Shown: one piece after another, positions 21,636 to 46,473 of the stretch
How the letters are laid out: every line of letters starts with the position of its first letter
How positions within the stretch are numbered: position 1 is the first letter of the stretch
NCBI RefSeq assembly: GCF_019683595.1
Contig: NZ_JADGHZ010000008.1
Coordinates: 1-46,473 of the forward strand
Length of the DNA: 46,473 bases
Reading direction: 5' to 3'
From: Sphaerobacter sp.
Lineage (GTDB): Bacteria > Chloroflexota > Chloroflexia > Thermomicrobiales > Thermomicrobiaceae
Notes under the pieces: model-generated
The model's input: the letters and a program-made list of their open reading frames with translations, nothing else
Told to the model about the DNA's origin: nothing
Database searches by the model: none
Position numbers and translations under genes: made by a program

Positions 21636-21936
21636 CGTCGTTCGGCCCCAGCGGGCCACTCCCCCTTTCCGCACGGCGGCTCGCCTACCGGCGTCCTGCC
21701 GCGAGGAAGCATCGCGTAGCGGGACCTCACCCCGCCGCGGCGATTCTAGCACGGGCGAGCCGCCCACCCCGCTCCCCAGGAGCGCGGGCCTCTTGCCCGC
21801 TCCCGGCTCTGATGGTCGCGGGCGTCCTGCTCGGCCCTCGTACGTAGCTCCCCTCTCCCAAGGTTGGGAGAGGGGTCGGGAGTGAGGGCCACTCTCGCGC
21901 AACGGGGTCAGGCGAGACGCCCGCCCCCGATCCGGC
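21636..21936. other. Intergenic region with two hairpin repeats
   Basis: No gene is visible in these 301 bp. GAGCGCGGGC and GCCCGCTC near 21781-21802 form one hairpin. A second at 21850-21875 is listed separately. GGCGAGACGCCCGCC near 21911-21926 is a further small inverted segment. No clear promoter for the cystathionine beta-synthase gene was identified. Confidence 0.5.
21850..21875. repeat. CCCCTCTCCCA hairpin repeat, copy 1
   Basis: CCCCTCTCCCA, AGGT, TGGGAGAGGGG is a perfect 11-bp stem followed by TCGGGAGTGAGGGCC. The same stem with the tail TTGGGGGTGAGGGCC is at 41967-42007. A degraded reverse copy occurs near 46207-46235. This is a dispersed hairpin family of the genome. Confidence 0.8.
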
Positions 21937-41957: not shown

Positions 41958-41992
41958 GAAAAAACGCCCCTCTCCCAGCGTTGGGAGAGGGG
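41958..41992 (-). terminator. Intrinsic terminator of the dsbA-VKOR operon
   Basis: On the minus strand, CCCCTCTCCCA and TGGGAGAGGGG form a perfect 11-bp stem (41992-41967), followed by CGTTTTTTCG. It lies 58 bp after the VKOR stop. The stem is the dispersed CCCCTCTCCCA hairpin repeat, here with a T-run, so the repeat seems to serve as terminator. It could also end the convergent MFS transcript, though without a T-run on that side. Confidence 0.75.
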
Positions 41993-42049
41993 TTGGGGGT
42001 GAGGGCCGCTACCACGGGGTCTGGCCACTCCCTGTAACGCGGAAACAGT

Positions 42050-44655: not shown

Positions 44656-45001
44656 AGGCTCTCCCCTCGATGCCCTCGCCTACTCTCCCACAGCCGGGTC
44701 CGCCGCGCCGGCGCATCACCCCGGACCACGGAAAAGTCCGCAATCCGCTCTCCCCCGCTGTCGCTATGATGAGTGCGTTGCCAGCCGGCGGCCGGTGCGA
44801 TAAGACTACTCGGTCATCGCATGGAGCTTGCCGAACGAATCGAGGGCACGCGGTCGTCCTTGGAGCGGGATGGGTGGTGCGACAAGTCCAGCGCCGTGGC
44901 CCGTGGCCGGGGTGCGGGATCCGTCGCACCACCCGCCTCGACGACGGCCGGCAGGGGCACGAGCCGGCTCAGGGAGGCGGGCGCACCGAAACGGAGGGGC
45001 G
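44656..45001. other. Divergent intergenic region before chrA
   Basis: No gene is visible. TATGAT at 44765-44770 is a possible rightward -10 without a clear -35. A short motif GGTGCGATAAG at about 44797-44807 recurs as GGTGCGACAAG at about 44876-44886, the latter within the long inverted repeat listed separately. A leader of about 220 nt in front of chrA is therefore possible. Confidence 0.35.
44872..44934 (+). promoter_or_regulatory. Long inverted repeat upstream of chrA
   Basis: GGGTGGTGCGAC (44872-44883) and GTCGCACCACCC (44923-44934) are perfect 12-bp reverse complements 39 nt apart. Three more pairs (TCC with GGA) can form beyond a small internal loop. It ends 67 bp before the chrA start. 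As RNA it would be a stable leader structure; as DNA it could bind a dimeric regulator. Confidence 0.5.
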
Positions 45002-46195
45002 GTGACGATCACGACGGACAAGGACGCATCCAAGACCGGCGCACCAGGCGAGCGCGGCCGCGGAGCCCTGCGAGAGGTCGCATGGGTAGCGGTCAAGCTG
45101 GGCTTCACCGCCTTCGGCGGGCCGGCGGCGCATATCGCCATGCTGCGCGACGAGGTGGTCGTCCGCCGGCGCTGGGTGACGGAGCAACACTTCCTCGACC
45201 TGCTCGGCGCGACGAATCTGATCCCTGGGCCGAACTCCACCGAGATGGTGATCCACACCGGCTACATCCGCGCCGGATGGCGAGGGTTGGTCGCCGCCGG
45301 GGTCGGCTTCATCACGCCCGCCGCGCTGATCGTCCTCGCCTTCGCCTGGACCTACGCCCGCGTCGGCACGACGCCGCAGGCCGAGTGGCTGCTCTACGGG
45401 ATCAAGCCGGTAATCATCGCCATCGTGGCGCAGGCCCTCTGGAACCTGGCAAAGACGGCCGTCAAGGGCGTGCTGGCCGCCGTGATCGGCCTGGGGGTGC
45501 TCGCGCTGGCGCTGCTCGGCTTCAACGAGATCGCGCTCCTCTTCGGCGGTGCGGCGTTGATGTTCGTGATTACACTCGCGCGTCGGGCGCGACGCCCGCC
45601 GCCGGTTGCCGCGCTGCTGCCGCTGGTCGGCGCACCGGTCCCGGCGGCGACAGCCGTGGCCGGCGCGGTGCCGTTCAGCCTGCTGACGCTCTTCCTCACC
45701 TTCCTCAAGATCGGCTCGGTCCTCTTCGGCAGCGGCTACGTCCTGCTCGCCTTCCTCCGCAACGACTTCGTGCTGCGCCTCGGCTGGCTGACCGACCAGC
45801 AACTGCTGGACGCCGTCGCGGTCGGCCAGTTCACGCCGGGACCGGTCTTCACCACCGCGACCTTCGTCGGCTACCTCGTCGGCGGGTTCCCCGGCGCGGC
45901 GCTGGCGACCCTGGGCATCTTCCTTCCCTCATTCATCTTCGTCGCGGCGCTCAACCCGCTCGTTCCCCGGCTCCGGCGCTCTCCCTGGACCGGCCCGTTG
46001 CTGGACGGGGTCAACGTCGCGGCCCTGGGGCTGATGGCCGCGGTCACCTGGCAGCTTGCCCGCTCGGCCGTGGTCGACCCGCTCACGGCCGGGCTCGCCC
46101 TCGCCGCGCTGGTCCTGCTCGTCCGCTTCCGGGTCAACTCCGCCTGGCTGGTCCTCGGCGGCGGGTTAGTCGGGCTTGTCACGTGGCTGCTGTGA
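45002..46195 (+). CDS. chrA: Chromate transporter ChrA (two-domain CHR family)
   Basis: Membrane transporter of about 397 residues, the length of bidomain CHR proteins, which export chromate using proton force in characterised bacteria. Both homologous halves are present. The first has LGFTAFGGPAAHIAMLRDEV and LIPGPNSTEM; the second has GSVLFGSGYVLLAFLRND and VGQFTPGPVFTTATFVGYL. These FGG/FGSG and GPxST/GPxFT motifs are the family hallmarks. The start is GTG 45002 with GGAGGGG just upstream; the frame is open back to 44828, but that part is Arg/Pro-rich and not family-like. No chrB regulator is adjacent. Sulfate or another oxyanion may be the natural substrate. The CRISPR leader begins about 60 bp downstream. 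Confidence 0.92.
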   Translation: MTITTDKDASKTGAPGERGRGALREVAWVAVKLGFTAFGGPAAHIAMLRDEVVVRRRWVTEQHFLDLLGATNLIPGPNSTEMVIHTGYIRAGWRGLVAAGVGFITPAALIVLAFAWTYARVGTTPQAEWLLYGIKPVIIAIVAQALWNLAKTAVKGVLAAVIGLGVLALALLGFNEIALLFGGAALMFVITLARRARRPPPVAALLPLVGAPVPAATAVAGAVPFSLLTLFLTFLKIGSVLFGSGYVLLAFLRNDFVLRLGWLTDQQLLDAVAVGQFTPGPVFTTATFVGYLVGGFPGAALATLGIFLPSFIFVAALNPLVPRLRRSPWTGPLLDGVNVAALGLMAAVTWQLARSAVVDPLTAGLALAALVLLVRFRVNSAWLVLGGGLVGLVTWLL

Positions 46196-46206
46196 TGGGA
46201 CGCATC

Positions 46207-46235
46207 CCCCTCACCCCAACCCCTCTTCCACAAGG
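46207..46235 (-). repeat. Degenerate CCCCTCTCCCA hairpin repeat, copy 3
   Basis: CCCCTCACCCCAACCCCTCT reads as the reverse of the repeat tail and stem seen at 21850-21889 and 41967-42007. Its partner arm is degraded (TTCCACAAGGG). It lies 12 bp after the chrA stop. Confidence 0.6.
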
Positions 46236-46254
46236 GAAAGGCTTCGCCAGGGTG

Positions 46255-46283
46255 TTGACAGCCTGCCAGCTTCATCGTAAATT
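46255..46283 (+). promoter_or_regulatory. CRISPR leader promoter
   Basis: TTGACA (46255-46260, consensus -35), a 17-nt spacer and TAAATT (46278-46283). It points toward the array; the expected transcription start is near 46290, about 85 bp before the first repeat. The leader downstream is comparatively A/T-rich and contains a hairpin (GCCGCC-GGTGA-GGCGGC, 46294-46310) and the small palindrome CGTAAAAATACG (46331-46342). Confidence 0.7.
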
Positions 46284-46374
46284 ACCGATAAGAGCCGCCG
46301 GTGAGGCGGCAATCGTTTCGGACGGTTGTTCGTAAAAATACGATGGTCGATGGTCGCAGTGACTCGGCGCCCGG

Positions 46375-46473
46375 ATTCGCCCCACACCCGTGGGGACCGA
46401 CGGTACTCAGCCATGGTCAGCCCGGTCAGGCCGACATTCGCCCCACACCCGTGGGGACCGACGACGGTCCGCT
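46375..46473 (+). CRISPR. Leader-proximal start of a CRISPR array, type I-E-like repeats
   Basis: Two identical 28-nt repeats lie at 46375-46402 and 46436-46463. Each begins ATTCGCCCCACACCCGTGGG and ends GACCGACG. The repeat contains the stem CCCCAC-ACCC-GTGGGG, and the crRNA 5' handle would be ACCGACG plus one base. The complete first spacer is 33 nt (46403-46435), and the next spacer starts at 46464 before the window ends. The 61-nt period and short central palindrome match type I-E systems. The array is read left to right from the promoter at 46255-46283. cas genes are not in the window. Confidence 0.88.

Follow-up and report, generated by a model that had tools for sequence, protein, structure and literature searches.

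The window analysed here, 46,473 nt that make up the whole of contig C164 in the draft genome (G000) of a Sphaerobacter species other than S. thermophilus, ends in a repeat-spacer-repeat unit that is most likely a "neo-CRISPR", left when Cas1-Cas2 integrated a self spacer off target, within the 5′ region of an arsM gene. As the original prediction had described, two 28-nt repeats (ATTCGCCCCACACCCGTGGGGACCGACG) enclose a 33-nt spacer from position 46375 onward (Table 1); the repeats are identical at 28/28 positions and recur with a period of 61. The contig ends at 46473, 10 nt past repeat 2. No further copy of a 22-nt core of the repeat was found in the 3.89-Mb assembly (0 control hits), and the repeat is absent from the other named genomes and viral contigs in the collections scanned. 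The draft comprises 324 contigs with 2.55% contamination, and was compared with the relatives S. thermophilus DSM 20745 (G001), G002, and G025, the last belonging to another family of the same order.

Table 1. Coordinates of features at the repeat-spacer-repeat unit, in its upstream region and of the dispersed intergenic repeat (window positions unless a contig is named).
Feature	Coordinates	Strand	Remarks
chrA-type chromate efflux transporter gene	44828..46195	+	TIGR00937, 330 bits
TTGACA-17-TAAATT promoter of arsM-type transcription unit	46255..46283	+	-35 at 46255-46260, -10 at 46278-46283
Operator 1 (putative), ATCGTAAATTACCGAT	46274..46289	.	imperfect palindrome over the -10; putative ArsR-family site
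Hairpin GCCGCC-GGTGA-GGCGGC	46294..46310	+	5′ untranslated region; read from sequence
Operator 2 (putative), TTCGTAAAAATACGAT	46329..46344	.	putative ArsR-family site
Copy 1 of duplicated 28-bp target (repeat 1)	46375..46402	+	hairpin CCCCAC-ACCC-GTGGGG; homologous to single-copy arsM 5′ DNA of S. thermophilus
Inserted 33-bp spacer	46403..46435	+	34/34 to own atpD through 46436; AAG PAM
Copy 2 of 28-bp target (repeat 2)	46436..46463	+	identical to copy 1
Final 10 bases of contig, ACGGTCCGCT	46464..46473	+	ancestral flank or start of a second spacer
Dispersed intergenic repeat copies	21848-21893; 41964-42013; about 46205-46240; C298:6573-6677

The Upstream Region is a Conserved arsM Promoter

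The elements originally noted upstream of repeat 1, namely a near-consensus promoter followed by a hairpin, a palindrome and a short direct repeat, are all present in the sequence, with TCGTAAAAATACGA at 46330-46343 and CGATGGTCGATGGTCG at 46342-46357. Their interpretation as the intact leader end of an array does not stand, however, since the region is an arsM promoter conserved in S. thermophilus and G025 and unlike the canonical leader, and repeat 1 is single-copy in S. thermophilus. The chrA gene precedes the site in both Sphaerobacter species, where synteny is maintained at 88-90% DNA identity. S. thermophilus is array-free at the orthologous site, which consists of chrA, the promoter with its palindromes, one degenerate "repeat" and, 66 bp after the latter, the start of arsM (arsenite methyltransferase, NF008823). 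Conservation between the two species is complete in the -35 (6/6), the -10 (6/6) and both operators (16/16 and 16/16), and reaches 30/37 positions in the hairpin-bearing region (46290-46326). Repeat 1, in contrast, matches its S. thermophilus counterpart at 22/28 positions plus one gap, similar to the flank (22/30), indicating that it is the promoter function that has been conserved.

The arsM orthologue of G025 (59% identical) is preceded by TTGACA-17-TAAATT with TTCGTAAATTAACGAA over the -10, followed by TTCGTGTTTTTACGAA and the start codon, and a one-mismatch copy of the 14-nt core of operator 2 is found just upstream of the gene. The window shares with the arsM promoters of both relatives the TTGACA-17-TAAATT promoter, an operator that overlaps the -10 and another one downstream, and differs from them in having the repeat-spacer-repeat unit between the promoter and whatever comes next. 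By its conserved palindromes and arsM context, the window promoter may be under ArsR control. When the operator motif was sought ahead of 79 arsM homologues of other phyla, ≥12/16 positions matched in 2 cases as compared with 0.7 in shuffles, which is not significant, so the link to arsenic is drawn from S. thermophilus and G025. A homologue of the window upstream region was not found in G002.

The arsM gene was not found in the G000 assembly and is presumed to lie in the gap between the window contig and contig C298, on which synteny with S. thermophilus picks up again ∼1 kb beyond the site (in S. thermophilus coordinates). C298 was also considered as the carrier of the distal end of an array and was rejected, as it is without a CRISPR repeat. 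It appears to terminate instead in a member of a dispersed palindromic intergenic repeat family of the CCCTCACCCC..CCCTCTCCC type, dozens of copies of which are present in both G000 and S. thermophilus.

Two further features of the window contig may be recorded here. An inverted repeat near the start of chrA (44872-44934) has 30-nt arms that are 77% complementary and lie 3 nt apart, and a beta-lactamase-family gene (PF13354; 39606-40421, minus strand) adjoins an MFS transporter gene.

The Spacer Derives from the Chromosomal atpD Gene

Positions 46403-46436 match contig C185 of the same genome (4473-4506, minus strand) at 34/34 positions, within atpD, the gene for the beta subunit of F1 ATP synthase (TIGR01039, 815 bits). 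The spacer is oriented antisense to atpD mRNA. A 33-nt spacer in a type I-E system begins with the final PAM base, as established for E. coli. The protospacer flank, read in spacer orientation, is ..ccggaa|GTACTC.., and hence the PAM is AAG; in atpD this AAG precedes the 32 further bases, and the PAM base lies at the leader-side end of the insert. Phage, plasmid and virus collections yielded no full-length foreign source for spacer 1, and a foreign origin was rejected: no phage or virus match was found, and the best matches in the phage and plasmid collections are partial, several of them being bacterial atpD. The view that the spacer records a recent encounter, to be traced by a search of phage and plasmid sequences, is thus misleading, since it is a piece of the bacterium's own chromosome.

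The Type I-E System and its Native Array

A type I-E operon is encoded on contig C272 of G000, with cas3, cas8e/cse1, cse2, cas7e and cas5e; the contig ends a few codons into cas6e. Across 7.4 kb the operon shares 94.2% identity with its S. thermophilus counterpart, which continues with cas6e, Cas1e and, by cas1, an array of 38 repeats (G001:C2 1142251-1144537); the genome paper of S. thermophilus DSM 20745 lists one CRISPR (PMC3035262). The cas genes that the original prediction had anticipated are accordingly present from cas3 to the start of cas6e, but cas1 and cas2 were not found in the G000 assembly. The PF01867 profile gave no cas1 match in G000, a result that means little because the same profile scores only 42 bits on the true Cas1e of S. 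thermophilus. Both genes are presumed to lie in an assembly gap.

The native repeat of S. thermophilus (GTTGTCCCCACACGCGTGGGGGTGAACC) is present in 38 copies, and a variant of it occurs 19 times in G002. Neither form is found in the G000 assembly, so the native array of this genome must also fall in a gap. Given the identity between the two I-E operons, the native repeat of G000 should resemble that of S. thermophilus, which the window repeat does not (19/28 identical positions). The S. thermophilus array nevertheless resembles the window unit in its 28+33 geometry, with a period of 61 in 33/37 units, in a CCCCAC-4-GTGGGG hairpin in the same register, and in a spacer that starts with G (35/38 at base 1 in the canonical array); its leader, formed by the end of cas2, is unrelated. 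Within this array, the same spacer pair occurs twice (L054 14618-14741 and 15535-15658), a case of internal segmental duplication.

It is unlikely that the window carries a genuine second type I-E array, in which 46249-46374 would be the leader, more repeats would follow past the contig end and spacer 1 would be an accidental self spacer. Such an array would agree with the perfect repeat identity, the 28+33 geometry, the repeat-like hairpin and the I-E operon in the genome, and the contig does break where an array might. The supposed leader, however, serves S. thermophilus and G025 as their arsM promoter and has no detectable similarity to the canonical S. thermophilus leader, and the repeat departs from the native one despite the near-identity of the cas DNA. 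In addition, the base that follows repeat 2 is A, as against the G that is next in 35/38 canonical repeats, which argues weakly against a second spacer. The 10-nt tail as a whole was uninformative on the presence of a second spacer, with 5/10 matches to the S. thermophilus flank. The assignment to type I-E can be retained on account of the operon, the AAG PAM, the 28+33 geometry and the hairpin register, although not as an array with a leader.

The Unoccupied Site and Signature of the Proposed Integration

The preferred origin, off-target integration by Cas1-Cas2, draws on the comparison with a single relative, S. thermophilus, in which locus L033 (6990-7154) represents the unoccupied, single-copy orthologous site followed by arsM. 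Homology between the two species runs through chrA, the promoter and repeat 1, and stops exactly at 46403, the repeat/spacer junction. The 33-bp insert and the 28-bp duplication together correspond in size to the product of I-E Cas1-Cas2. Window and native repeats share the 5+16+7 hairpin register and 15/16 positions of the hairpin, with similar predicted RNA hairpin energies of -12.3 and -12.9 kcal/mol, respectively. With one mismatch, the native hairpin is found in the whole G000 assembly only at the two window copies, and with two mismatches at three other places; a scan of 144 kb from the genus gave a single instance of 20/29 agreement with the native repeat. Taken together, the hairpin match, the register and the duplication size suggest that the site was the best pseudo-repeat of the genome, picked by the integrase and cut to the length it normally measures off.

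The resemblance of the site to canonical repeats, which extends to 20/29 positions in the window and, by hand comparison, to 17/29 in S. thermophilus with a recognizable hairpin at the same place, could also mean that it is the relic of an old CRISPR repeat. In one such history, a neo-array had already formed 5′ of arsM in the common ancestor of the two species, with S. thermophilus keeping one degenerate repeat after recombination and the window at least two. An older neo-array of this kind is unlikely, as the window copies are identical at a locus that is ∼20% diverged from S. thermophilus, the S. thermophilus counterpart is no more stably folded than shuffled sequences (z +0.84), and an additional loss is required. 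Least probable is an assembly chimera, contamination or chance duplication that does not reflect a real chromosomal arrangement, since, for all the fragmentation and contamination of the draft and the position of the unit at a contig end, synteny with S. thermophilus holds up to the junction and a misassembly would not jointly yield a duplication of 28 bp, an insert of 33 bp and a protospacer flanked by AAG.

Proposed Mechanism and Fate of the Unit

In the proposed integration, a type I-E Cas1-Cas2 integrase, presumably that of the genome's own system, would have taken up a 33-bp fragment of atpD with its AAG PAM and inserted it at a palindrome resembling a repeat, near the 5′ end of an arsenic-regulated unit, the layout of which (chrA, ars promoter and operators, arsM) is taken from the sister species. 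Integration would have duplicated 28 bp of local DNA, leaving a minimal new CRISPR transcribed from the ars promoter and not from a CRISPR leader. Cas6e could cut the hairpin of this transcript, and the resulting crRNA would bear the 5′ handle ACCGACGG where the canonical one is GTGAACCG. Effector assembly may be poor because of this difference, so the crRNA is probably unused or poorly used, which would explain how the cell tolerates a perfect, PAM-flanked self match in atpD although its effector operon appears intact. The same juxtaposition makes tolerance of self-targeting directly testable.

The simplest reading of what the unit does is that it would be an accident that happens to be transcribed. 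It is very improbable that the unit has been kept for a function, in which arsenic would relieve the ars promoter and a Cas6e-processed crRNA or antisense RNA would lower ATP synthase under metal stress; if this were true, a new regulatory CRISPR would have been made in one integration step.

Relation to Known Systems

Non-canonical spacer integration has been described for overexpressed Cas1-Cas2 (Nivala et al., 2018, as cited in PMC11788318 and PMC11687729). Those products reportedly resemble the window unit in being formed by Cas1-Cas2 outside the CRISPR locus, at a repeat-like site, with a 33-bp insert and a ∼28-bp duplication. The window differs from them in coming from a natural Thermomicrobia genome and not from E. 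coli overexpressing Cas1-Cas2, in having an empty site in a sister species, in its position behind a metal-type promoter, and in a spacer that stems from an essential gene of the cell itself and has a perfect PAM. The 2018 abstract of Nivala, Shipman and Church reportedly also claims putative natural cases, one in Yersinia pestis and one in Sulfolobus islandicus. Off-target integration is already known in principle; what the window provides is a natural case with a self spacer and an empty-site relative. To our knowledge, natural off-target integrations in which the empty ancestral site is still visible are scarce. How CRISPR arrays evolve at new genomic sites is still an open question, for which S. 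thermophilus would represent the state before, and the window the state after, the birth of an array outside the real CRISPR locus, with the recognized feature identified as a palindrome that shares its register with the native repeat.

Tolerance of self-targeting spacers has been reviewed (PMC6990116), and the window shares with such cases a perfect match plus PAM to its own chromosome and the presence of effector genes; whereas those spacers are usually located in standing arrays, the one described here is in a non-CRISPR site. A caution follows for annotation, in that what looks like a short array downstream of a good promoter may be something else.

ArsM-Related Sequences in Other Genomes

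A palindrome similar to the operators (TTCGTA.TTT.TCGAG) is located at a near-constant distance, 190-194 bp, upstream of acidobacterial arsM genes (L105, L142, and L149), and may be the same ArsR-type operator. In relatives of Sphaerobacter, ArsM-like methyltransferases were detected whose reading frames contain a TGA codon once or twice (L063, L064, and L065, from G012, G009, and G005, respectively); ArsM-type selenoprotein families are included in NCBIfam, so these proteins may be selenoproteins.
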